Shown here one piece after another: positions 61 through 63,799 of a DNA stretch of 64,000 bases. Each line of letters opens with the position of its first letter. Within the stretch, counting starts at the first letter, position 1. Below the pieces are notes generated by a model. The model was given only the letters and a program-made list of their open reading frames with translations, had not been told where the DNA came from and did not search any database. The DNA comes from Uranotaenia lowii (Eukaryota; Arthropoda; Insecta; Diptera; Culicidae), in the NCBI RefSeq assembly GCF_029784155.1, contig NC_073691.1, positions 62,674,822 to 62,738,821 of the forward strand. Reading direction: 5' to 3'. A program made the position numbers and the translations under genes.

Positions 61-1914
61 TATAGCTCAGTTGATAATTGGTCCGTAAACGAACGAATTA
101 GTGAGGTGAATAAACGTCAGCTTTGCTTGAACTGTTTGCGTCCTGGGCACATAGCCAATGATTGTTCAAGAGGATCGTGTTTGCGTTGCGAAGGAAATCA
201 TCACACCCTTTTGCATTATGATCAATCACATTTTCCCCGATCTTCACCATCGTACGTTCCACGCGAGCGCGTTAATCCCGATTTGTCAAGGCAATTAACA
301 CAAACCAGATCAAATTCACAAAGTCAAACACACCAGGCACACAATCAAAACTCCCCACACACTACAACATCGTATCCTGTAGTTCAATCACTTGCTCTGC
401 AACCTTACCCACAATACACCACAGGCATTCAGACATCACATACGTTTGAAGCTATGCATAATACATCCAACTACTTACCCCTTCAAGTTCTCATGTCAAC
501 AGCAGTAGTGCGGATAGAAGATCATGGTAACTACTCTTACGCTCGAACTTTGCTAGATTCTTGCTCTGAATTCTATTACATTAGCACCAACCTAGCAAGA
601 AAGTTGACACTCCCGGAAAAACGAGAAAGATTGCAGATTCAAGGAATAGGAAATGCATCCGTCACATCAACGAAGTCCGTTGAAGCCCGCATTCGTCCGA
701 GGCTTTCAACAATTTCAAGTTTCTGCGAGGATATACGCTTTCATATTTTGCCAAACATCACTCGCATTTTGCCTATAAAACCGGTTCCACTAAGGCATCA
801 TAGTACGCCAGAAAAGTTGATATTAGCAGACCCAGAGTTCTGGAAGCCGAGTCCAATCGACATGATCATTGGAGCTGAATATTTCTACGATTTACTACAA
901 GTAGGAAAACGAAAATTCATTGATGATGGACCGATTCTCCAAGAATCAGTCCTTGGATGGATAGTCTCTGGAAAAGTAGTGGAAGATCATTCAGAAAATC
1001 GTTTTAAAAATAATTCAGTAAACCTTTCAGTAATTCGTTCAGACGCTCATTTAGATGCTCGTTCAGACGCTCATTTAGCTGCTCATTCAGATGCTGGTTC
1101 AAACGCTCATTTAGCTGCTCATTCAGATGCTCGTTCAGATGCTCATTTAGCTGCTCATTCAGATGCTCATTCAGATGATCGTTCAGACGCTCATTTCGCT
1201 GCTCATTCAGATGCTCGTTCAGACGCTCATTTAGCTGCTCATTCAGATGCTCGTTCAGACGCTCATTTAGCTGCTCATTCAGATGCTCAATCGGATGCTC
1301 GCTTAGACGCGCATTTAGCTGCTCATTCAGATGCTCGTTCAGACGCTCAATTAGCTGCTCATTCAGATGCTCATTCAGATGCTCGTTCAGACGCTCATTT
1401 AGCTGCTCATTCAGATGCTCATTTAGATGCTCGTTCTGACGCTCATTTAGCTGCTTATTCAGGTGCTCATTCAGGCGCTTATTTAGCTGCTCAGCAGATG
1501 CTCTTTCAGACGCTCATTCAGACGCTCATTCAGACGCTTATTCATCTGCTCGTTCAGATAATCATTCAGCTGCTCATTCAGTGGAACTTTCAGATCACCA
1601 TTCAGAAACCCATTCGGTAAACCATTCAGAGGAATCTTCAGCACTACGTTCAGAATTACTTTCTAGTCAGAGAATCACATCTAGTTTTGTGAGTTCAACT
1701 GCGGAACTGCAGGAGCTTATTGCCAGGTTTTGGGAGCTAGAGTCGTGTCACGTAAAAAGCGTTTATTCTGTTGAAGAAACAGCATGTGAGGAACATTTTC
1801 AGCAGAATACAATTCGTGAATCACGAGGTCGGTTCATAGTCAGCCTGCCCAAGAAACCAGACATTATCCGAAGACTGGGTGATTCTAGGAATATTGCAAT
1901 GAGGTGATTCATCG
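61..1914 (+). pseudogene. BEL/Pao retrotransposon gag-pol fragment
   Basis: The frame open from about 61 to 1620 encodes the junction of gag and pol of a BEL/Pao LTR retrotransposon. Near its start is a zinc knuckle of the form CX2CX4HX4C (CLNCLRPGHIANDC), which binds RNA in the particle. About 140 residues in is the aspartic protease region, where the usual LLDSGS active site reads LLDSCSE. Further on comes the BEL-typical linker GPILQESVLGWIVSG. A long low-complexity repeat follows, and the pol linker then resumes in another frame at 1581-1907 (ELQELIARFWELE, then SVEETACEEHF and GRFIVSLPKK), which normally leads into the reverse transcriptase. The reverse transcriptase, RNase H and integrase are not present here. 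The start is cut by an in-frame stop at 58-60 and by the window edge. The altered protease motif, frame change and truncation all indicate a dead copy. Confidence 0.88.
1042..1600 (+). repeat. 36-bp coding minisatellite inside BEL pol
   Basis: About fifteen imperfect copies of a 36-bp unit are translated without a stop as a 12-residue period, roughly ARSDAHLAAHSD. The array lies between the protease linker and the region that leads to the reverse transcriptase. The first copies are the most regular. The last ones (from about 1490) decay into TCAGACGCTCATT half-units, and the reading frame slips there. The repeat is absent from the usual BEL architecture, so it is probably a slippage expansion private to this copy or lineage. 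Confidence 0.85.
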
Positions 1915-9197: not shown

Positions 9198-9686
9198 TAT
9201 TGTTCAATTGGTCGGAGATCTAGACAATTTGGTGGATTGATGATTTTCTCGACGAATTGGATGTTATTGTAATGCTTGAAAGCCGCTGCAGTACAGGCTT
9301 GACGTAATGTGCAGAAGAGAGGGGGTTACTGATGCTTTATTTATTCATCTTTGTAAACTTGAGCATCTTTAAATGTTTAAGTCACCGTCAGGGATTGAAA
9401 TGCTCTTGCTCAAGCGGCTGAGCATCAACGCTCTTGAAGCTCGAGAGCGAAGAAAGCTGGAGCCAATTCTAGCCCACCAATAAATGCTCAAATTAAGCTC
9501 ATACCTCTTCTGGCTCTAGGAGACAAGGTTTTGCATTTTGCTTTGAGTTTGTTAGCTCAAGGAGCCGAAATTTCTTGAGCTTGCTGGCTCAGCAAAATTG
9601 TAACACTTGAGCCAAATGATGTGTATTGACTTTGCTATTGTGGTGCTGTGTGAGCCAACGGCTTTTTTATGCACCAGGAACTGTGG

Positions 9687-11425
9687 AAGGGCTTGTTGGG
9701 ATTAATAAAATGAATATTAAAGATTTCTTGTAACTGGTAAAAGTTACCAGCACTAGTAACTATGAAATAGTAAAATTTACAATTTTTCGGGAAAAACGCC
9801 AAATGAAAGGGCTTTTTGCGAGGTTAATAATCCTATCCTCAATGTTAGAGAGTTCTAGTTACTAGTAAAAGTTACCAGCACTAGTAACTATGAAATAGTA
9901 AAAATGACATTTTTTCGAGAAAAACGCCAAATGAAAGGGCTTGTTGCGAGGATTATTAAAATCAATGTTAGAGAGTTCTAGTTACTAATAAAAGTTACCA
10001 GCACTAGTAACTATGAAATAGTAAAATTTACAATTTTTCGGGAAAAACGCCAAATGAAAGGGCTTTTTGCGAGGATTATTAAAATCAATGTTAGAGAGTT
10101 CTAGTTACTAGTAAAAGTTACCAGCACTAGTAACTATGAAATAGTAAAATTTACAATTTTTCGGGAAAAACGCCAATTGAAAGGGCTTGTTGCGAGGATT
10201 ATTAAAATCAATGTTAGAGAGTTCTAGTTACTAGTAAAAGTTACCAGCACTAGTAACTATGAAATAGTAAAATTTACAATTTTTCGGGAAAAACGCCAAA
10301 TGAAAGGGCTTTTTGCGAGGATTATTAAAATCAATGTTAGAGAGTTCTAGTTACTAGTAAAAGTTACCAGCACTAGTTACTATGAAATAGTAAAATTTAC
10401 AATTTTTCGGGAAAAACGCCAATTGAAAGGGCTTGTTGCGAGGATTATTAAAATCAATGTTAGAGAGTTCTAGTAACTATTAAAAGTTACCAGCACTAGT
10501 AACTATGAAATAGTAAAATTTACATTTTTTCGAGAAAACGCCAAATGAAAGGGCTTGTTGCGAGGATTATTAAAATCAATGTTAGAGAGTTCTAGTAACT
10601 AATAAAAGTTACCAGCACTAGTAACTATGAAATAGTAAAATTTACATTTTTTCGGGAAAAACGCCAAATGAAAGGGCTTGTTGCGAGGATTATTGAAATC
10701 AATGTTAGAGAGTTCTAGTTACTAGTAAAAGTTACCAGCACTAGTAACTATGAAATAGTAAAATTTACAATTTTTCGGGAAAAACGCCAATTGAAAGGGC
10801 TTGTTGCGAGGATTATTAAAATCAATGTTAGAGAGTTCTAGTTACTAGTAAAAGTTAGCAGCACTAGTAACTATGAAATAGTAAAAATTTCATTTTTTCG
10901 GGAAAAAGCCAAAAGAAAGGGCTTGTTATGAGGATTATTAAAATCAATGTTAGAGAGTTCTTGTAACTAGTAAAAGTTACCAGCACTAGTTACTATGAAA
11001 AAGTAAAATTTACAATTATTCGGGAAAAACGCCAAAAGAAAGGGCTTGTTGTGAGGATTATTAAAATCAATGTTAGAGAGTTCCAGTTACTAGTAAAATT
11101 TACCAGCACTAGTAACTATGAAATAGTAAAAACGCCAAAAGAAAGGGCTTGTTATGAGGATTATTAAAATCAATGTTAGAGAGTTCTAGTAACTAGTAAA
11201 AGTTACCAGCACTAGTTACTATGAAATAGTAAAATTTACAAATTTTCCGGAAAACGCCAAATGAAAGGGCTTGTTGCGAGTATTATTAAAATCAATGTAA
11301 GAAATTACTAGTTACTGGTAAAAGTTACCAGCACTAGTAACTATGAAATAGTCAAATTTCGAAATTTTCGGGAGAAACGCCCAATGAGAGGGCTTGTTGC
11401 GAGGATTATTAGAATAAATGTTAAT
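9687..11425 (+). repeat. Forward tandem array, 123-bp unit, about 14 copies
   Basis: Consecutive positions of the word TGAAAGGGCT are 10055, 10178 and 10301, a strict 123-bp period. Each unit contains GTTACCAGCACTAGTAACTA, a TTTTTCGGGAAAAACGCC block and GCGAGGATTATTAAAATCAA. Units differ by point changes and small deletions. One unit near 11130 is shortened. Within each unit AGTTACTAG / CTAGTAACT forms a short palindrome. Confidence 0.95.
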
Positions 11426-11449
11426 GTTTTAAAAATTTGTAAGTTTTAA

Positions 11450-14005
11450 TATTTCATAGTTACTAGTGATGGTAACTTTTACTAGTTACTTAAACTCTCT
11501 TACATTGATTTTAATAATCCTCACAAAAAACCCTTTCATTTGGCGTTTTTTTTTCCGAAAAATTGTAAATTTTACTATTTCATAGTTACTAGTCTGGTAA
11601 CTTTTACTAGTAACTAGAACTCTCTAACATTGATTTTAATAATCCTCGCAACAAGCCCTTTCATTTCCCTTTTTCCCCGAAAAAATGTCATTTTTACTAT
11701 TTCATTGTTACTAGTGCTGGTAACTTTTACTAGTTACTAGAACTCTCTTACATTGATTTTAATAATCCTCGCAACAAGCCCTTTCATTTGGCGTTTTTCC
11801 CGAAAAATTGTAAATTTTACTATTTCATAGTTACTAGTGCTGGTAATTTTCACTAGTTACTAGAACTCTCTAACATTGATTTTAATAATCCTCGCAAAAA
11901 ACCCTTTCATTTGGCGTTTTTCCCGAAAAATTGTAAATTTTACTATTTCATAGTTACTAGTGCTGGTAACTTTTACTAGTTACTAAAATTCTCTAACATT
12001 GATTTTAATAATCCTCGCAAAAAACCCTTTCATTTGGCGCTTTTCCCGAAAAATTGTAAATTTTACTATTTCATAGTTACTAGTGCTGGTAACTTTTACT
12101 AGTAACTAGAACTCTCTAACATTGATTTTAATAATCCTCGCAAAAAGCCCTTTCATTTCGCTTTTTCCCCGAAAAAATGTCATTTTTACTATTTCATAGT
12201 TACTAGTGCTGGTAACTTTTACTAGTTACTAGAACTCTCTTACATTGATTTTAATAATCCTCGCAACAAGCCCTTTCATTTGGCGTTTTTCCCGAAAAAT
12301 TGTAAATTTTACTATTTCATAGTTACTAGTGCTGGTAATTTTCACTAGTTACTAGAACTCTCTAACATTGATTTTAATAATCCTCGCAAAAAACCCTTTC
12401 ATTTGGCGTTTTTCCCGAAAAATTGTAAATTTTACTATTTAATAGTTACTAGTGCTTGGTAACTTTTACTATTTACTAAAATTCTCTAACATTGATTTTA
12501 ATAATCCTCGCAAAAAACCCTTTCATTTGGCGCTTTTCCCGAAAAATTGTAAATTTTACTATTTCATAGTTACTAGTGCTGGTAACTTTTACTAGTTACT
12601 AAAATTCTCTAACATTGATTTTAATAATCCTCGCAAAAAACCCTTTCATTTGGCGCTTTTCCCGAAAAATTGTAAATTTTACTATTTCATAGTTACTAGT
12701 GCTGGTAACTTTTACTAGTTACTAAAATTCTCTAACATTGATTTTAATAATCCTCGCAAAAAACCCTTTCATTTGGCGCTTTTCCCGAAAAATTGTAAAT
12801 TTTACTATTTCATAGTTACTAGTGCTGGTAACTTTTACTAGTTACTAAAATTCTCTAACATTGATTTTAATAATCCTCGCAAAAAGCCCTTTCATTTGGC
12901 GCTTTTCCCGAAAAATTGTAAATTTTACTATTTCATAGTTACTAGTGCTGGTAACTTTTACTAGTAACTAGAACTCTCTAACATTGATTTTAATAATCCT
13001 CGCAACAAGCCCTTTCATTTCGCTTTTTCCCCGAAAAAATGTCATTTTTACTATTTCATAGTTACTAGTGCTGGTAACTTTTACTAGTTACTAGAACTCT
13101 CTTACATTGATTTTAATAATCCTCGCAACAAGCCCTTTCATTTGGCGTTTTTCCCGAAAAATTGTAAATTTTACTATTTCATAGTTACTAGTGCTGGTAA
13201 TTTTCACTAGTTACTAGAACTCTCTAACATTGATTTTAATAATCCTCGCAAAAAACCCTTTCATTTGGCGTTTTTCCCGAAAAATTGTAAATTTTACTAT
13301 TTCATAGTTACTAGTGCTGGTAACTTTTACTAGTTACTAAAATTCTCTAACATTGATTTTAATAATCCTCGCAAAAAACCCTTTCATTTGGCGCTTTTCC
13401 CGAAAAATTGTAAATTTTACTATTTCATAGTTACTAGTGCTGGTAACTTTTACAAGTAACTAGAACTCTCTAACATTGATTTTAATAATCCTCGCAACAA
13501 GCCCTTTCATTTCGCTTTTTCCCCGAAAAAATGTCATTTTTACTATTTCATAGTTACTAGTGCTGGTAACTTTTACTAGTTACTAGAACTCTCTTACATT
13601 GATTTTAATAATCCTCGCAACAAGCCCTTTCATTTGGCGTTTTTCCCGAAAAATTGTAAATTTTACTATTTCATAGTTACTAGTGCTGGTAATTTTCACT
13701 AGTTACTAGAACTCTCTAACATTGATTTTAATAATCCTCGCAAAAAACCCTTTCATTTGGCGTTTTTCCCGAAAAATTGTAAATTTTACTATTTCATAGT
13801 TACTAGTGCTGGTAACTTTTACTAGTTACTAAAATTCTCTAACATTGATTTTAATAATCCTCGCAACAAGCCCTTTCTTTTGGCGTTTATCCCGAAAAAT
13901 TGTAAATTTTACTATTTTATAGTTACTAGTGCTGGTAACTTTAACTTGTTACTAAAACCGTCCAACATTTATTTTAAAAATCCATGCGACCAGCCCTTTT
14001 TTTAG
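11450..14005 (-). repeat. Inverted tandem array of the same 123-bp unit, about 21 copies
   Basis: This is the reverse complement of the forward array, separated from it by an AT-rich spacer of about 25 bp. A marked variant (CATTTCGCTTTTTCCCC or a close form) recurs at 11662, 12154, 13016 and 13508, that is at 492, 862 and 492 bp. These are 4, 7 and 4 units. A second variant (AATTTTCACTAG) recurs in phase with it. The array therefore has a four-unit higher-order repeat with a local expansion of three units. Confidence 0.93.
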
Positions 14006-15224
14006 TTACTTCACTGTGCATAAAAACGCAGGCGTTGGCTCGAACAGCAGCGGTGAAAACAAGCTCAACGAATTTGAATCGGTTGAGCCAACAAGCTCAA
14101 GCTCCTCTGGAGGCATGAGCTAACGGGCTCACGAGGCAAAAAAAGAGCTAAGGTTTCTTCCAAATAAGAGCTTAGCAATGCGAAGCTCCGGAGACAAAAA
14201 CGATAGGAGCTTCGTCGATTGCTTTGTAAGCGGAGCTATGGAAATAAAGAGCTATGAAGCTCGCTCAAATGAGCTTAATTTTCAATCCCTGGTCACCGTT
14301 GTTGTTATCTTCTCGTTTTTTTGAGCATTTATTGTACCTTTTGTGAAGAAAATACTAATAGCTTGCCATACTAGAACCTTCTGCCCAAATGTTTTCATCG
14401 CAATCGTGCAGTCGGTATCATCCCCCTCCTCGTCCGTTAATTTCGTGTAGAATTGTGGCCCGGGAAGCGTTCCTGATTCCTTTTTGACGTAGGTTTTGTC
14501 GTTCATTAAGATGCACCTATTGCTGTTGTCCAGAATCTGTTCGTAAAGTTTCCGTGCCTTTGTTTTTGCTCGAGATTGTGGCTCTACTGATTTTTAGGTA
14601 CCTTCCTCTTCTTGTACTTCTGTGTCTTCAAGGAGTTCCTGACCTTGATTCTCTGAATCATCCCAAGGCTGCTTTTGAACTTTTAGGAAGGTCATGCGTA
14701 GGTCCGATCGGTTACATTTGATATGAGTGACTACCTTAGCATCCAACTGGGGCTGATTGGAACCAGGTTTTCTTCTGGATCTAGGTAGATCCTTCAAGAA
14801 CAACTTGTTGCCATATTTGTCGATGATAAATTTCACGCTTGTGTGGTGTTCTATGAACCGTTTTGCGATTTTCAGTTCACCAAGTGTGCCGAGTTTTTTT
14901 CCTAGTTTCAAGATCAATACAAACCATAGCGAAGATGAGAAAACTAATCCGAACAAATTGATTGCACAACAATTTTCAAACATGTAAACAAACTTTTGCT
15001 TGCATGCACACAGAAAAAAGTTCACTAATTTTTGAATAAACTAGTTTTAAAAGTTGCTTATGACATTTCGATACAGTTCTTATTAATTGCTTCTATCAAA
15101 CTGGCTGCCAAAAAACCTTTGATTAATTCTTAAACAGAAACAAGGCTTCGAAGACAGACACTCTTTAGCTTCAATGAAATGCAAATTGACTGTCAAAAAC
15201 CTTTGAATAACCCCTTTAAAGACA

Positions 15225-29673: not shown

Positions 29674-29766
29674 AGCGAGGTTAAAAGTAAAAATCGTAAA
29701 GTCCGTATTTTTAACCACGTTAATTGAACTGTACGCAAGTTTTTCGGACGGTTATCGCGAAAAGTA

Positions 29767-30237
29767 ATGGAGGGGTATCGATTCACGCTACAGAAGCTCG
29801 GAAATAACAATAACACCACCTGGTGGTTCAAGGTCGAGCTGTTGCTCGTTCGGGAGGAGCTCTGGCGATATGTGGATCCAGGAGTAAAGCCGGAGACCGA
29901 AGCGGATGCCACGTGGAGGGCAGGAGACGCCAAAGCAAGAGCCACGATTGGCTTATTGATTGAGGACAACCAGCACGGATTGATTCGCTCGTCGACGACG
30001 GCCAAAGCTACTCGGACGGCGCTCCAGAATCACCACCAGAAGACAACTCTAACCTCAAAAGTGTCGCTTCTTAAAAGGATTTGTGACAAGCACTACGTAA
30101 ACGGAGAAGATATGGCTGAGCACCTGTTCGAGATGGAAGAGCTGTTTGCCTGTATAGTGTTTAGCCAACGCCGGACAAGAGCTGCAACAGAATCTCATGG
30201 TCGCGATGATTTTGAGAAGTCTTCCCAGCTCTTTTGA
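29767..30237 (+). pseudogene. Copia gag, truncated
   Basis: The frame starts at ATG 29767 (MEGYRFTLQKLGNNNNTTWW) and encodes the Copia Gag N-terminal domain (DUF4219/UBN2 type): FKVELLLVREELWRYVDPGV, then KVSLLKRICDKHYVNGEDMA and EHLFEMEELF. The capsid-like domain normally continues for another 150 or so residues and ends in a CCHC knuckle. Here the sequence jumps after ELF into a different frame and then directly to the protease, so the knuckle is gone. Confidence 0.82.
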
Positions 30238-30256
30238 CACGCTTGCTTTGGCTACC

Positions 30257-30629
30257 GGTTTTGTAGCTATAGTAAACGCAAGCAAGCCGTGGATCGTCGA
30301 CTCCGGTGCGACAAGCCACACCGTCGCCGACCGGAAATCGTTTTTGGAGCTGAAGGAAAGTGCGGCCAGGTCTGTCAAGCTGGCGGACGGTAATAATGTC
30401 AAGGTTGGTTGTGAAGGTCCCTGCGTCGTCGAGTGCGTCAACGAGCGAGGCCACCATCAAGAAATGAACCTTAGTGAAGCACTTCATGTTCCGGATCTGT
30501 CCCTGAACTTACTTTCGGTCCGCGCGCTGGTCGAAAAGCAAGCTACTGTAATCTTCGACGCAGCTGGCTGTCGGATCATGCGAGGAGAAGTCACTATAGC
30601 AGCGGCAACCTTGAAGGACGGCCTGTACC
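30257..30629 (+). pseudogene. Copia protease region
   Basis: The stretch KPWIVDSGATSHTVADRKSF carries the aspartic protease active site DSGATSH intact. SVKLADGNNVKVGCEGPCVV, LHVPDLSLNLLSVRALVEKQ and TLKDGLYL follow, the standard run from protease to the GAG-pre-integrase region in Copia polyproteins. The frame is open from 30197. It is cut at 30629 by the inserted TIR element, after which the same protein resumes. Confidence 0.85.
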
Positions 30630-31047
30630 TATGTGGTTTATCTATAGGTGGGGACAATCGAAAACATAAGTGTTAGTTCGTTGTATCCATACAGTTGTTT
30701 ATGAACGATTGTGACGTAACGCGACGCCATCATAAAGTCGAGTATTAGGCGTCCAAATGTAGCCATAGAAACTTATTAAGAGGAATGTTTGGGACGCAAA
30801 TAAAGTTATTTATTATTTTGAACTCATAGCGTCGCCGTATTGTGCCTCAGGAGAAAACCATAAATAAAAGGGTGCTTTGATTGTAATTTTTCAAATAACA
30901 CGAAACGTCGCTTGCCGTCGATGAACTGCAACTTCAACGTCGAGACGCATATGAACGTTTGTGACGTAGCAATCAAAACATTGAAAAAACTGATTCTCAC
31001 ACTCGTGCAAGGGCATTCTTGTCCTCACCTATAGATAAACCACATGG
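30630..31047. mobile_element. 418-bp TIR element inserted in Copia pol
   Basis: Left end TATGTGGTTTATCTATAGGTG followed by GGGACAA; the right end is its inverted copy with one or two mismatches (reads CCATGTGGTTTATC then TATAGGTGAGGACAA on the other strand). The direct repeat GGCCTGTACC flanks it (30620-30629 and 31048-31057), a 9-10-bp target duplication. The Copia protein continues GLY before and LYHIKQPQ-like after, so the insertion is younger than the Copia. TIR style (CATG...AGGTG) is loosely P-element-like, but the duplication is longer than the 8 bp expected there; a Mutator-like origin is an alternative. Confidence 0.78.
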
Positions 31048-31057
31048 GGCCTGTACC

Positions 31058-31370
31058 ACATCAAGCAACCACAGAGCGTTGTCATGATGGCAAGCGACCA
31101 TCACCACAAGGACTGCAAGCACGTTTGGCATAGGAGATTCGGCCACCGGGATCCGAAAGCGATTCAGCGTTTGCAGAAGGGCGGTCTGGCGGACGGCATC
31201 ACAATCCACGAGTGCAACGTTGACGAGCAGTGCGAATGCTGGCTAAAAGGTGCGATGCCACGTATTACCTTTCCCAACGAATCGACGTCTACGTCAGCTG
31301 CTCATATGGATCTGGTGCACACGGCCGTTTGCGGTCCGGTTGACACACCGTCGGTCAGTGGTAATTGGAG
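31058..31370 (+). pseudogene. Copia GAG-pre-integrase and start of integrase
   Basis: After the insertion the frame reads MMASDHHHKDCKHVWHRRFG and HRDPKAIQRLQKGGLADGI. This is the pre-integrase domain with the H...H and C...C zinc pattern (W-H-R-R-F-G-H and QCECW). HMDLVHTAVCGPVDTPSVSG, the beginning of the integrase core, follows. The first catalytic Asp is present in HMDLVHT, where functional relatives read HxDLVHTDVCGP. The core stops abruptly at GN near 31368, where a large deletion begins. Confidence 0.82.
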
Positions 31371-32064
31371 GAGGAGACCGAATTGCCTACAAACACGTCA
31401 TACCGCAGTTTGGTGGGCAGTTTGCTTTACGTTGCGGTAAACACCAGGCCGGACATCTGCGTGGCTACATCGTTGCTGGGAAGAAAAGTTTCAAATCCGT
31501 CGAATAGTGATTGGACCGAAGCAAAGCTACCTCAAGGCTACGAAAGATTACCGTTTGCATCTAGGATCCGGCATCGGCGAACTTGAATGCTACGTGGACG
31601 CCAGCTGGACCAGCGACGAGGCGGACATGAAATCACATTCTGGCTTTCTACTGAAGTTCGGTGGAGGGCTCGTCGAATGGGGCACACGAAAACAGTCATG
31701 CGTTGCTGTATCCTCGACAGAGGCCGAGTACGTGGCCCTGGCGGAAGGTTGCCAGAAGTTGCTGTGGTACCGCAAGCTGCTCCAGGATCTACAGCAAGAA
31801 CAACGAGCTCCTGTCGTCGTATGGGAGGACAATCAATCGTGTATGAAGATCGTGGAGTCTGAACGTCTGGAACGCCGTTCTAAGCACATTAACACCAAGT
31901 ATGCGTTCACCAAGGATCTACACTCAAAACGAATCTTCGAACTCCGCTACATGCCTACTGAAATCATGGAGGCAGACATAATGACAAAGCCCCTGGATCG
32001 CGTAAAGCTGGAGCGGCACAGGGCAGCCATCGGCTTTATGGAATCAAATGAGGCATCGAACTAA
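31365..32064 (+). pseudogene. Copia RT C-terminus and RNase H
   Basis: EEETELPTNTSYRSLVGSLL and YVAVNTRPDICVATSLLGRK are the last conserved block of a Copia reverse transcriptase. They are joined directly to the integrase start by deletion. A frame change at about 31507 leads to RNase H: ECYVDASWTSDEADMKSHSG, SSTEAEYVALAEGCQKLLWY, VVWEDNQSCMKIVESE and MEADIMTKPLDRVKLERH, with a stop at 32062-32064. The catalytic D (YVDASW), E (TEAEY) and D (WEDNQS) are all present. Polymerase activity is impossible because the YVDD palm is missing. Confidence 0.86.
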
Positions 32065-33900: not shown

Positions 33901-34790
33901 CGCTTAGGTTAGATAGCGCATATTTGAATTGGAACTCCCATTTTTACATATTTTTGATAAGTTATGTGTGTTGGTTTTGAGTTAAAATTTGAAAAAATAT
34001 AAAAATCTTTGAAAACTTCAAATTACCGGAAGTGGTATGAATATCTCTACAATATGAGTATTGAGTGAAAGAACCAAAATAGTATGATTTTTTTTTTGCT
34101 TGACGCCATCATTAATCCAAGATGGCGGCTTCCGCTTTTATTTCCAAAGCTGTAGTTTACTGATAATATCATGAAACCTTCATAATTTGATTATTAGGTG
34201 AAAGTGAAAGTCGAATTTCGTTGTCCGTCGCCATCTTAAATTCCAAGATGGCGGCTATAACTCAACTTTAAAATACTTTAAATGACTGAAAATCGCATAA
34301 AATCCTTACAATATGGGTATTAGTTGAAAGAGATCAACAGATAGAATTCGAATTTCGTTATCTGACGCCATCTTGAAATCCCAGATGGCGGCTTCCACTG
34401 AACTTTAAAATGTTGAAAATGACTTAAAATCGTATGAAACCCCAACAATATTGGTATTGGGTGAAATGGCTAAACGAGTAGAAGTCGAATTTCACAACTC
34501 ACTACTGCTCTCAATACTCATATTGTGGGGGTTTCATTTGATTTTCAGTGATCAAAATCATTTTAATGTTCAGTGGAAGTCGCCATCTTGGATTTCAAGA
34601 TAGCGTCAGATAGCGAAATATGACTTCTACTCGTTTAGCCCTTTCACCCAATACCATTATTATTAGGGTTTCATGCGATTTTAAGTCATTTACAGCATTT
34701 TAAAGTTCAGTGGAAGCCGCCTTCTTGGATTTTAAGGTGGCGTCAGACAACGAAATTTGACTTCAACTCATGGTTTATTCCACGGGTCAT
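33900..34790. repeat. Palindromic array of GATGGCGGC-containing units
   Basis: Three forward units of about 125-140 bp each contain CCAAGATGGCGGCTTCCACT or a close form, AACTTTAAAATG and a TATTGGGTGAAA block. From about 34500 two more units follow in inverse orientation (GTCGCCATCTTGGATT and GCCGCCTTCTTGGATT). The centre of symmetry lies close to 34500. The whole could fold back on itself as a long imperfect hairpin. Confidence 0.75.
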
Positions 34791-36000: not shown

Positions 36001-38009
36001 CTAGCTGACCCGGTGTGCTTTGCTACACCCTTCAAAAACAAATGATATTTTCGGAAACTATTCAAATTTTTATTGTTTTATTGGCATTATTTTGAATCAA
36101 ATTATAACATAATTCAAAAGCAACCGCTACGAAAAGAGAGCTGCAGCTGGAGTTTGGAGTTGCAATACAAAGATGACTTAAACTAATTTCCTGAATCTTG
36201 ATCTATAAGTTCTGATAGTTTTTAAGTTTCGCCCTGAAAAAGGAGGGTATCAAATTAATCTTACGCAAAAAATCTAACTCTGAAAATATGGTTGTTTTTG
36301 CTTGATATGTTCTGGATTTATGCTAAAAATTGATAAGAGAGCCCCCTCCTGTGCTTCCCATCATCCCCTGCTGGATGGAGGTCGTGATCTTTAATAATCA
36401 TACCCATTTTATACTGGGCCTATAAATCCTCTTATATCAAATATAGTTCCATTATTGGTTGATAAGTTTTTAAGCTTTACAACAAAATTTGTCTGGAGCC
36501 CCCTCCTTTCTTCCCCTCTCTACACTGTATAGCGTAAGGGTCTATAACAATCGTAAAAAACATATCTCGCAACCAAGTACTTTTTCATGCCATATTCGTT
36601 TCCATTTATTGGCTTCGTTAACATAAATTGAGAACTTATGCTAACAAAATTGTATTGGGCTCACCTCCCTCCTCCTATGTACCTACTCACTGAAAGGAGG
36701 ATGGTGTGTCAATCATACTAAAGTGATTTTCCATGTTAAGTTTTACCTCTCGGATTTTGTTAAAAAAAAAAGTTAAATATAAGCTTTCCTCTTCCTTTCC
36801 TATATTCCCAATTCTATCATCCTACTGCAAGCAAGGAATTGTTTCAAATAGAAAAATTTCGCGTATTGAAATACTATCCCATGCCAAATTTGGTTTTATT
36901 TGTGTAGTAAATTCTTGAGTTATGCATAAACTTGAAAGGAAGTACTATTCCCCCTTCCGTTCTACCAATTGAATGGAGGGAGGAGAACTAAATATTCATA
37001 AAAGTATTTTTCGTACTCAAATTCTTTATTAAACCAAATTTGGTTTCATTAGCTCGATCAATTCTCGAGTTATGCCAAAAATTTGTATGGAAGCCTCCCT
37101 TTCCCCCTTTATATCTTTCCGCTGAAAAAAGATGGGGCTCTCTTCCCCCTTTTCATCCTCCTCTTTGAAGGAGTGAGGGATACCAAATATTCATAGAAGC
37201 ATTTCTCGTACCCAAATATCGTTCCATGCCAAATTTGGTTCCATTTGCTGCTGTAGTTCTCGAGTTATGCAGTTAAAATTGTATGAAACTCCCCTCCCTC
37301 TTTCCTTTCTCCCCGCTGGAAGAAGGAAGGGGTCTCAAACAATCTTTAGAACATGTCACGTTTCCAAATACCCGCCCATGCCAAATTTGGTTCAATTTGC
37401 TTAATTAGTTTTTGAGTTATGCGAAAAATTATAAAAGAGGCCCCCTCCCCCTTTATGTCTCCTCACTGGAAAGAGGGAGGGGTCTCAAATAATCATACTA
37501 ATATTTTTCGTATCCAAATACCCTCCAATGCCAAATTTGGTTCCATTTGCTTTATTAGTTTCTGAGTTATATAAAATATTTTGAAAGAGGCCTCCTCCCC
37601 CTTTCTACTGGAAAGAGGGAGGGGTCTCAAATAATCATTGAAATATTTTTCGTATCCAAATACCTTCCCGTGTCAAATTTGGTTCCAATATCTTGATTAG
37701 TGTGCGAGTTAAATGAAAAATTGTAAGGTAGACCTAAAATGCAATACCTAAAATCAATTGCTCATCTTTCAAAACCCCCACGTGCAAATTTTCATCACAA
37801 TCCGACCAAAAATTACGTTAATATCGCGAAAACAACATTTGTCTTGTATGGACGACCCCCTTCAGAAGGGGTCTTCCGAAAATCTGTTAAAATTTTCATC
37901 ATTCCTGGTCCTAATGCGCATCCATGCTAAATTTCAGCTCTCTAGCTCTTAAAACGGCTGAGTCTATAGAGGACAAACAAACAAACCCACAGAAATTGCT
38001 TTTTATATA
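36001..38009 (+). mobile_element. Two-part minisatellite element, from CTAGCTGACCCGG to the ACAA tail
   Basis: It starts CTAGCTGACCCGGTGTGCTT, a start also seen in altered form at 56131 (CTGGCTGACCCGG). Minisatellite B follows, about eight units of about 150 bp, each with CCAAATTTGGTTCCATTTGC, GAGTTATG and a GGAGGGGTCTCAAATAATCA block. Minisatellite A and the CAAACAAAC...TTTTTATATA tail close it. No protein is encoded. The fixed start, fixed tail and internal tandem structure suggest a non-autonomous retroelement or an amplification unit. Similar starts occur widely in insects, from memory. Confidence 0.55.
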
Positions 38010-38626: not shown

Positions 38627-39046
38627 TAAGGTTGCCAGATTTTTTTCAGCACGTACCCGGGCCGGATAAATCCGGGCAGTTTTGTCTTAAAACATGGCAA
38701 AATCCAGGCATGTGATTCTGAAATGTCGACTGAAATTCCGGGCAATATCCTGGCAAATTTGGTCAAAATCCAGGAATTACTCAACACAAATCAAGAAAAA
38801 AAACTTCATTAGCAATTTCAAAATCGTATTTAAGACTTTTAAAAATCTGTTCTTGATTATTTTTCTACAACTTGCTTAATAAATTTCGTTTTGGGTACAT
38901 ACATAAAAATTTGTACAACACAATTGATTTTTTTTTATTCTTTTGGCAAATAAAGGGAATAAATCCGGGCCAAATCCGGACTTTTTTCAATTTTGCATTA
39001 AATATCCGGGAAAACGCGGATTAAAATGGGCAATCTGGCAACCTTA
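38627..39046. mobile_element. 420-bp hAT MITE, TAAGGTTGCCAGATT ends
   Basis: The left end is TAAGGTTGCCAGATTTTT and the right end inverts to TAAGGTTGCCAGATTGCCC. An exact 8-bp duplication, GTTTAGTG, lies outside each end (38619-38626 and 39047-39054), the length made by hAT transposases. The interior carries CCGGGCCGGATAAATCCGGG and related CCGG-rich words near both ends, probably subterminal binding repeats. No coding capacity was seen. Confidence 0.88.
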
Positions 39047-53554: not shown

Positions 53555-54792
53555 AAGGGTGATACGGTCAACATTTGGTCAATATCAACTTGAAGTATTT
53601 CTTTCAATTTTGCATTTAAAAAACCTGAACACCCCTAATTTTGAAGATGTGTGTTGGTGAATAATGTTGCTCCTATTTTGATTTTGGAATTCACTCTTCA
53701 GTTGTCAAAATGCCGTCCAAGGAGAAGAGCAGCGTATCAAAATTTTGCTGGCAAAGCTGGCAAAATCGCTAAAAGTTGCCAAATCAACCATTACAAATGT
53801 AATTGGGAACGTTTGTCAACAGCCAGGAAGTCTGGATCGGGGGGAAATCGAAAACCGGAAGCCGCTGAGATGACAAAGAGAGTTGCCGGTAGTTTCAAGC
53901 GAAACCCTAATCTCTCTCCGAGATGCCGCAAATAAGCTGGGTGTATCGTCTACAACCGTGCATCGAGCCAAAAAAACGAGCCGAACTATCGACTTACAAG
54001 AAGGTAGTGACTCCAAATCGCAATGATAAACAAAATACCACGGCCAAAGCGCGATCCCGGAGGCTGTACACGACGATGCTGACGAAGTTTGACTGCGTGG
54101 TAATGGACGACGAAACCTACGTCAAAGCCGACTACAAGCAGCTTCCGGGACAGGAGTTTTATACGGCAAAAGGAAGGGGAAAGGTAGCAGATATTTTCAA
54201 GCACATGCATCTGTCAAAGTTCGCGAAAAAATATCTGGTTTGGCAAGCCATCTGTACCTGTGGCTTGAAAAGCAGCATTTTCATAGCTTCCGAGATTGTC
54301 AACCGAGAAATTTACGTGAAAGAGTGTTTGAATAAACGTCTACTATCTTTCCTGAAGAAACACGGTTGTTCCGTACTGTTTTGGCCGGATTTGGCATCTT
54401 GCCATACGGTAAAAAGGCCATGGAGTGGTACGACGCCAACAACGTGCAGGTGGATCCCAAGGACAAGAACCCTCTCAACAGGCCAGAGCGCCAATTGCGA
54501 AATACTGGGCTATTGTCAAGCGGAACCTAAAGAGGACCAAAAAAACTGCTAAGGACGAGCAGCAGTTCAAGGCAAACTGGTTTTCTGCGGCGAAGAAGGT
54601 GGACAAGGTGGCTGTACAAAATCTGATGGCCCGGAAATTCGGATTTGGAAAAGCGGAAGCCTAACTGAATACTTTTCCTGAATTTTATACTAATTAAACT
54701 TGAAAGAGAAATTTAATTTGATTTTTTATATAAACGATTTCACCGATTTACACGCGTTTTCCCTTGACCAAATTTTGACCGTATCACCCTTT
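53555..54792 (+). mobile_element. Mariner-type element, complete ends, copy 1
   Basis: The terminal repeats are AAGGGTGATACGGTCAACAT on the left and, inverted on the right, AAGGGTGATACGGTCAAAAT. They continue as TTGGTCAA. TA precedes the left end (53553-53554). The right flank reads TT, a decayed TA. The 1.24-kb length and single transposase gene are standard for the family. A sister copy lies at 62573. Confidence 0.85.
53710..54664 (+). pseudogene. DD37E-type transposase, frameshifted, copy 1
   Basis: The start ATG at 53710 (MPSKEKSSVSKFCWQSWQNR in the first frame) corresponds to the ATG of copy 2. About 35 bp of the helix-turn-helix region is deleted relative to it. The catalytic domain reads VMDDETYVKADYKQLPGQEF, AKKYLVWQAICTCGLKSSIF and SVLFWPDLASCH. 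After a frameshift near 54410 it ends KYWAIVKRNLKRTKKTA and FGFGKAEA at the stop 54662-54664. The first and second catalytic aspartates are present (MDDETY, WPDLAS), but the region with the final acidic residue is scrambled by the shift. It is an inactive copy. Confidence 0.87.
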
Positions 54793-62572: not shown

Positions 62573-63799
62573 AGGGAGATACGGTCAAAATTTGGTCAAT
62601 ATCAACTTGACGTATTTCTTTCAATTTTGCATTTAAAAAACCTGAACACCCCTCATTTTGAAGGTGTGTGTGTAGAATGTTGCTCCTATTATGATTTTAG
62701 AATTCACTCTTCAGTTGTCAAAATGCCGTCCGAGGAAGAAGAGCAGCGTATCAAAATTTTACTCGCGGATCGCTAATATCCGAGCTACTCGCACGCAAAG
62801 CTGGCAAAATCGCTAAAAGTTGCCAAATCAACCGTTACAAATGTAATCAAAGTGTTTGGGAAACGTTTGTCGACAGCCAGGAAGTCTGGATCGGGGGGAA
62901 ATCGAAAACCGGAAGCCGCTGAGACGACAAAGAGAGTTGTCGGTAGTTTCAAGTGAAACTCTGACCTCTTTCTCCGAGATGCCGCAAATAAGCTGGGTGT
63001 ATCGTCTACAACCGTGCATCGAGCCAACAAACGAGCCGGACTATCGACTTACAACAACTCCAAATCGCGATGATAAACAAAATACGACGGCCAAAGCGCG
63101 ATCCCGGAGGCTGTACACGACGATGCTGACGAAGTTTAACTGCGTGGTAATGGACGACGAAACCTACGTCAAAGCCGACTACAAGCAGCTTCCGGGTCAG
63201 GAGTTTTATACGGCAAAAGGAAGAGGAAAGGTAGCAGATATTTTCAAGCACACGAAACTGTCAAAATTCGCGAAGAAATATCTGGTTTGGCAAGCCATCT
63301 GTACCTGTAGCTTGAAAAGCAGCATTTTCATAGATTCCAGGACTGTCAACCAAGAAATTTACGTGAAAGAGTGTTTGAATAAACGTGTGCTGCCTTTCCT
63401 GAAGAAACACTGTTGTTCCGTACTGTTTTGGCCGGATTTGGCATCTTGCCATTACGGTAAAAAGGCCATGGAGTGGTACGCCGCCAACAACGTGCAGGTG
63501 GTTTCCAAGGACAAGAACCCGCCAGAGCTTCACCCAATTGAGAAATACTGGGCTATTGTCAAGCGGAACCTAAAGAAGACCAAAAAACTGCTAAGGACGA
63601 GCAGCACTTCAAGGCAAACTGACTTTCTGCGGTACAAGGTGGGTGTACAAAATCTGATGGCAGGGGTTAAGCATAAGGCCCGACAATTCGGATTTGGAAA
63701 AGCGGAAGCCTAACTGAATATTTTTCTTGAATTTTATTCTAATTAAAATTGAAAAAGAAATTTAATTTGATTTTTTAAATAAACGATTTCAACGATTTA
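62573..63799 (+). mobile_element. Mariner-type element, copy 2, right end lost
   Basis: The left terminal repeat AAGGGAGATACGGTCAAAAT is preceded by TA (62571-62572). The body is collinear with copy 1 at 53.6 kb up to the sequence AAACGATTTCAACGATTTA. The 3' terminal repeat seen in copy 1 is then replaced by unrelated DNA. The truncated end makes it immobile. Confidence 0.84.
62723..63713 (+). pseudogene. DD37E-type transposase, copy 2, near-complete catalytic domain
   Basis: The ATG at 62723 gives MPSEEEEQRIKILLADR and then a stop. The helix-turn-helix continues in other frames (SLKVAKSTVTNVIKVFGKRL). From about 63120 the catalytic domain is open: VMDDETYVKADYKQLPGQEF, AKKYLVWQAICTCSLKSSIF, FWPDLASCHYGKKAMEWYAA and NPPELHPIEKYWAIVKRNLK, ending FGFGKAEA. 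All three acidic residues are visible. Relatives read NPPNCPELRPIE, so three residues are missing here. The spacing between the second D and the E is 34 instead of 37. A poor C-terminal stretch (LLRTSSTSRQTDFLRYKV) reflects a frame slip. It is inactive. Confidence 0.87.

Follow-up and report, generated by a model that had tools for sequence, protein, structure and literature searches.

Two foldback elements from Drosophila, Tetris and Galileo, are the closest known systems to the family that we report here: they are alike in anatomy, and we do not claim membership in either. In Tetris (Drosophila virilis), both inverted repeats contain a flanking domain and tandem repeats. Tetris resembles the new family, as judged by description and not by sequence, in being non-autonomous, in having duplications of 8-10 bp, and in having an array number that varies between alleles or copies; it differs in having a middle and an inner domain, in being structurally complete in only three assembled copies, in the Mutator origin suggested for it, and in the presence of free satellite arrays (PMC4079207). 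Galileo belongs to the P superfamily. Its inverted repeats are long, and some of them contain tandem repeats, which in one D. willistoni copy are of about 140 bp. Its arms vary between copies, but it has its own P-superfamily transposase, and its repeats carry transposase binding sites (PMC4168063 and PMC3688188).

FB of Drosophila melanogaster is also a foldback element with internally repetitive arms, but its repeats are different; foldback elements are usually related to Mutator, according to PMC4079207. From another direction, Hermes and Ac/Ds are similar to the new family in their short tips, 8-bp duplications, subterminal repeats at both ends, and, for Hermes, the target pattern nTnnnnAn (PMC10368747). 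However, classic hAT elements have short inverted repeats of 10-25 bp (PMC3942097) without mirrored arrays, and the element that we describe has no transposase. Searches of open-licence papers for a hAT foldback element found none, and the passages on foldback and hAT transposons that we compared describe no such element.

We analyzed a stretch of 64,000 nucleotides from the mosquito Uranotaenia lowii (the window, C1:62674822-62738821) and searched the 1.078-Gb genome. The best account of the 4903-bp element at 9389-14291 of the window is that it very probably belongs to a young, non-autonomous, hAT-type foldback DNA transposon family. The 8-bp duplication GTCACCGT occurs exactly twice in the window, and both occurrences directly adjoin the 12-bp tips, which are CAGGGATTGAAA and its reverse complement (Table 1). 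Between the flanking domains are 14.3 forward and then 20.8 inverted units of 123 bp, and the inverted array has a higher-order repeat of four units (period about 492 bp). With the unit as the query, there was no other match in the window beyond the element's arrays. Because the arrays are mutually inverted and the flanks align as inverted repeats, long inverted repeats make up most of the element, and they are internally repetitive: 123-bp units are present in both arms of all 21 copies that we compared. Where Tetris has a middle domain, the window copy has just 8 bp. On this account, each copy is a long imperfect palindrome, with a 12-bp tip, a 300-bp flank that is dense in GAGC/GCTC, and an array of 123-bp units, all mirrored and without a middle domain.

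Table 1. Features of the foldback element, in window coordinates
Feature	Position	Strand	Details
Target site duplication GTCACCGT, left copy	9381..9388	.	8 bp, exact
Left 12-bp terminal inverted repeat CAGGGATTGAAA	9389..9400	+	
Left flanking domain	9389..9687	+	299 bp, 16 GAGC/GCTC; aligns in inverted orientation, with divergence, to the right flanking domain
Forward array	9688..11423	+	14 units of about 123 bp, of which one lacks 20 bp, and a 35-bp partial unit
Palindrome centre	11424..11431	.	8 bp between arrays; surrounding junction in the same orientation in 15/21 copies
Inverted array	11432..13997	-	20 units of about 123 bp and a 103-bp partial unit
Right flanking domain	13998..14291	-	294 bp, 16 GAGC/GCTC
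Right 12-bp terminal inverted repeat	14280..14291	-	Reverse complement of CAGGGATTGAAA
Target site duplication GTCACCGT, right copy	14292..14299	.	8 bp, exact

When we scanned the window for exact 12-bp inverted pairs that are at most 20 kb apart and have an exact 8-bp flanking duplication, just two were found outside the array: this element and a 420-bp stretch at 38627-39046, with inverted ends TAAGGTTGCCAG and duplication GTTTAGTG, which is possibly a separate small transposon. The window also includes an open frame (61-1620) whose weak match to a peptidase (DUF1758) stays below the curated cut-off; it probably belongs to a Pao/BEL-type retroelement. Within this frame, window positions 1038-1581 hold about 45 copies of an in-frame 12-bp repeat. 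A fibrinogen-related protein gene at 27742-28320 matches a U. lowii protein (100% over 63% of its length); a search of viral contigs with a protein of this type gave no hits, which does not bear on the element. Pieces of a Copia-type retroelement lie at 29728-32064: of three open frames, the first two have gag and Pol_BBD domains and the third has no match. Two transposase remnants that are related to each other, and are probably of Tc1/mariner type, are at 53911-54552 (no match) and 62847-63713 (DDE_3 below the cut-off), and there are short tandem arrays at 34208-34493 (period 137 bp) and 37201-37726 (period 150 bp).

The left and right 300-bp flanks have no blastn match to each other. Aligned as inverted repeats, they score 148, as compared to a mean of 71 and a maximum of 115 for 500 Markov shuffles and 82 for the same-strand control; the shuffles preserve dinucleotides only, and the common GAGC motif contributes something to the score of 148. 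If the flanks are cut into thirds, matching thirds score 51-58 and non-matching thirds score 27-36, with the best scores on the diagonal. Motif content alone is disfavored as the source of the alignment by the same-strand control and by the order in which the thirds match. Judging from these alignments, the flanks are most likely diverged inverted repeats, which would make the whole element a foldback.

Both flanks have about 54 GAGC/GCTC motifs per kb, versus 4.7 per kb in the remainder of the window. Together, the flanks contain 32 of these motifs, while the expectation is 2.6 if based on the rest of the window and 9.1 if based on Markov-shuffled flanks; the arrays contain none in 4.3 kb. 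The most enriched 6-mer of the flanks is AAGCTC (11 occurrences versus 0.18 expected). It contains AAGC, which is one of the two forms of AAG(T/C), the binding site proposed for the BED domain of Hermes (PMC10368747). AAGC occurs at 23 and 34 per kb in the flanks and at 7.5 per kb elsewhere; AAGT is not enriched in the flanks. In this family, the motif is a putative transposase binding site. We also considered whether the arrays might be extra transposase sites, as in Galileo, but the motif that marks the flanks is absent from them, and AAGY is at background there. Nor does the 123-bp unit seem to derive from the flanks, as reported for Tetris: the similarity scores are no higher than for shuffles.

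In the genome, there are 120 exact occurrences of the 23-bp left end and none of its reversed control. The left 301 bp gave 192 candidates, and all 40 of those scored were 97-100% identical over at least 300 of the 301 bases. The right 294 bp gave 175 candidates, with the 40 listed being full-length at 97-100% identity; 32 of these 40 pair with one of 100 listed left ends on the same strand, at distances of 1.5-10.4 kb. These distances, which include nested inserts, exceed the few hundred bp of a MITE. We compared the window copy and the 20 best copies by left-end match, a sample that is hence biased towards young and intact copies. In 20 of these 21, the two arms are simply forward and then inverted between both flanks (the exception is L026), and the gap between the arrays is 5-9 bp in 19 of 21 (the exceptions are L022, with a central insert, and L026, which is rearranged). 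The left flanks differ by 1.3% on average among the 21 copies, and the right flanks by 2.1% (20 copies, with L025 left out). Exact 8-bp duplications flank 19 of the 21 copies, including L022, where the match is with the second of its right ends. The two exceptions are L013, by an extra base, and L023, by a single mismatch. A few ends are imperfect: the right tip is partly deleted in L010 and has one changed base in L025 and L027.

An earlier note on this DNA had proposed a foldback element with hAT-type ends, an exact 8-bp duplication, and about 14 forward and 21 inverted units. These claims stand, both in the window and, for the duplications and the layout, across the copies just described; given the alignment of the flanks, the case for a foldback is stronger than was claimed. 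The note had also suggested searching the genome with the terminal 300 bp and counting insertions with 8-bp duplications, and it would have given up the idea if no second copy had these ends; the 120 exact left ends and the 19 exact duplications answer this.

What are the arrays, and where did they come from? From the matches listed among the best 40 of 525 candidates for the unit, we took 29 array places, which form 28 clusters (the window's own is one of them). Twenty-eight of these places have a listed left end at most 12 kb upstream, and the remaining one, which is on the small contig C1088, adjoins a right end, so no free array was found among the 29. Four arrays (L029-L032) were considered as free satellite, as they were outside both top-40 lists of ends, yet all four have a right flank and an upstream left end. 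The proposal that the transposon seeds satellite DNA at new sites thus gained no support from these places, all 29 of which adjoin element ends. Conversely, the element could be a hAT deletion derivative of the ordinary kind that took up a pre-existing satellite in two orientations, with the arrays being passive cargo. The unit has no similarity to the flanking domains above shuffle level, so it may have come from elsewhere, and the arrays lack the GAGC motif. But a free array that might have been captured was not seen among the 29 places (best 40 of 525 unit candidates), and the central junction is common to copies, which implies that the mirrored layout is older than the spread of these copies. 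Overall, we view capture as a serious possibility, if an unlikely one.

The evidence for a common junction is that 50 bp from the centre of L013 are found in forward orientation in 15 of the 21 copies, L013 included (forward scores of 34-50). Another central junction is common to L009, L011, L014, and L019, and L022 has an insert there.

Array length varies far more among copies than the ends diverge. With L026 set aside, left arms have 4.2-15.3 unit lengths and right arms have 3.8-20.9. The numbers of left and right units are loosely correlated (Spearman 0.57, p = 0.009 without L026; 0.39, p = 0.08 with it), although the copies are related and hence not independent. The outermost units are specific to their position: left outermost units are 0.940 identical among copies versus 0.872 to other units, and the corresponding values on the right are 0.929 and 0.861. 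For inner units, position-specific differences are at most 0.016. By their ends, the window copy and L017 group together, at a modest support of 0.76. In the left arm of L017, 11 of 15 units best match the window's 13, in the same order. Their right arms have 20 units (window) and 11 units (L017) because a four-unit block is repeated more often in the window copy. These comparisons imply that transposition carries along much of the order of the units, with blockwise growth or shrinkage of the arms afterwards. Unequal exchange within arms would alter arm length in this way. The arrays of L009, L019, L022, and L026 also hold related inserted elements, which have ends like CAGACCCCGTTCGTTTTTGGCAAC and are about 81-95% alike.

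The arms also seem to exchange sequence with each other. In L010 (copy G000:C1:53353740-53361259, read at G000:C1:53351459-53361409), a 2330-bp insert, which looks Tc1/pogo-like by eye, is present in both arms at mirrored positions and is 100% identical between them. The two inserts lie inside a perfect arm-arm match of 3072 bp; the arms differ from each other in their outer parts and at the centre. The centre is flipped: the junction scores 47 of 50 in inverted orientation versus 18 in forward orientation. L010 retains an exact 8-bp duplication despite its partly deleted right tip. Both features, the mirrored insert and the flipped centre, are expected traces of conversion and crossing-over between inverted repeats. 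The structure of this copy is strong evidence that the arms recombine with each other, which would help to keep them matched. Identical mirrored inserts were found in L010 alone, and in none of the other 8 of the 9 copies with inserts above 150 bp. More broadly, we compared identity between the arms of one copy with that between arms of different copies: the mean excess within copies is 0.005 and is positive in 17 of 21 copies (p = 0.036 without L010; 16 of 20 positive, p = 0.049, without L010 and L026), a weak effect by a blunt measure, as L010 itself scores 0.0016. A second kind of internal inversion is seen in L026 (G000:C2:260307634-260317584), whose left arm has an inverted block of 12 units (1.3 kb) between two related inserts.

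Arms that match this well could pair in RNA. The predicted fold of the sense strand of the window copy has 1765 pairs across the centre, and perfect arm-arm matches reach 3072 bp in L010 and 47-221 bp in the other 20 copies. A read-through transcript would form a long hairpin and could feed the siRNA pathway. On this basis, the copies might be a family of hairpin-RNA loci that is kept because siRNAs from its dsRNA act to silence the family itself or its hAT partner. Besides the fold and the long perfect matches, there is a parallel from Aedes aegypti, where the fraction of siRNAs that map to MITEs exceeds that of piRNAs; fold-back dsRNA is what the authors of that study suggest (PMC3259105). 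However, the fold of a naked RNA indicates no more than a potential to pair, and we consider this explanation for the family rather unlikely. A fuller model, which we put forward quite tentatively and would not bet on, combines the two ideas: the body of a hAT family would be a satellite palindrome whose arms are kept complementary by recombining with each other (conversion and flips), so that more than 100 loci would be ready to give near-perfect long dsRNA, and the arrays would be selected as a source of siRNAs that control the family or its hAT partner and not as transposase binding sites.

Returning to the hAT-type foldback family, three features place it in this superfamily. First, the tips are short (12 bp) and the subterminal regions are repetitive, as the GAGC/GCTC-rich flanks illustrate; the tip is of the CAGGG type, close to that of maize Ac (CAGGGATGAAA). 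Second, the duplications are 8 bp. Third, the target sites fit nTnnnnAn in 15 of 21 copies (p = 4.4e-11 versus flank composition; the left copy of the duplication was used for L013 and L023), with T at position 2 in 17 of 21 and A at position 7 in 18 of 21. For the window's site, GTCACCGT, T2 fits and A7 does not. This pattern is the one given for Hermes (PMC10368747). The probable assignment to hAT rests on tips, duplication size, and target pattern because no transposase gene with these ends was found among the hAT places and hAT 3' flanks compared.

The family might instead belong to a different superfamily, with foldback elements of a Mutator-like or P-like kind (as with FB, Tetris, or Galileo) whose duplications are 8 bp by chance. 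This is very unlikely given that the duplication is exactly 8 bp in 19 of 21 copies, that nTnnnnAn recurs in 15 of 21, and that the tip is short and Ac-like. Motif-rich subterminal regions are also as in hAT elements (PMC10368747). What speaks for another superfamily is that most described foldback elements are assigned to Mutator, that duplications are 8-10 bp in Tetris (PMC4079207) and 7-8 bp in Galileo (PMC4168063), and that a transposase with these ends was not found among the hAT places and 3' flanks that we examined.

The search for that transposase, or for an autonomous copy with the same ends as the earlier note had advised, covered hAT domains, 40 hAT 3' flanks, relatives of one open hAT gene, and places near listed left ends; it found no such partner. 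There were 425 candidates for hAT dimerisation domains in the genome, and all 150 of those scored were over the cut-off. None of 145 hAT places (142 of the 150, with 8 on small contigs omitted, and 3 relatives of the open hAT gene) is within 15 kb of the 100 listed left ends, which are 100 of the 120. The tip TTTCAATCCCTG does not occur with one mismatch or less in any of 40 hAT 3' flanks (of 150 listed); with two mismatches it occurs in 3 of the 40, all without GAGC enrichment. One place, L039, has a weak match to the right flank (24 bases, opposite strand, E 3e-4). A second CAGGGATTGAAA in L029 lies in surroundings without GAGC clusters by eye, and we judged it to be due to chance. Nested inserts above 150 bp, which are present in 9 of 21 copies, seem by eye (from their ends and open frames) to be other elements, and none was recognised as hAT. 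The open hAT gene, at G000:C1:154243571-154245445, encodes 625 amino acids with BED and hAT dimerisation domains (DUF659 is below the cut-off). It has GAGC/GCTC clusters on both sides, like our element, but its right tip is TAGAGATGGGCAAAACGG, as inferred from where three copies cease being alike, and not CAGGGATTGAAA. Twelve hits to hAT domains are clustered within 1.1 Mb (G000:C1:174313672-175395624). Presumably, a hAT transposase that is encoded elsewhere in the genome would recognise the tips and the GAGC-rich flanks and would move the whole palindrome, arrays included.

Finally, an assembly artefact, which the earlier note had named as a way in which the array orientation might prove false, is almost certainly not the explanation: palindromes and satellites are difficult to assemble and L010 is nearly fully symmetric, but 20 of 21 copies at separate sites, with differing lengths and flanks, have the simple layout, duplications link both ends in 19 of 21, and L010 retains ends that differ between left and right, outer arms that are not identical, and a centre that lacks symmetry.

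The earlier note knew of no named element with this layout. That needs qualification, as Tetris (PMC4079207) and Galileo (PMC4168063) are similar; what holds is that hAT-type ends and the missing middle domain set the U. lowii family apart. In contrast to Tetris, it has no middle domain, 120 exact left ends, a hAT target pattern, and no free array among the places seen (best 40 of 525); in contrast to Galileo's repeats, its arrays lack the flank-marking motif. The family also suggests that the foldback layout arises in hAT elements too, beyond Mutator- and P-type elements.

This is a young family with more than 100 exact left ends and clear boundaries, in which one can follow from one copy to the next how tandem repeats expand within a transposon. 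Block duplications are seen in related copies, the units at the outer edges are constant, and one copy records an exchange between inverted arms. The family makes it testable how foldback elements keep long arms alike, why the arms grow, and whether such palindromes feed the siRNA pathway of mosquitoes.
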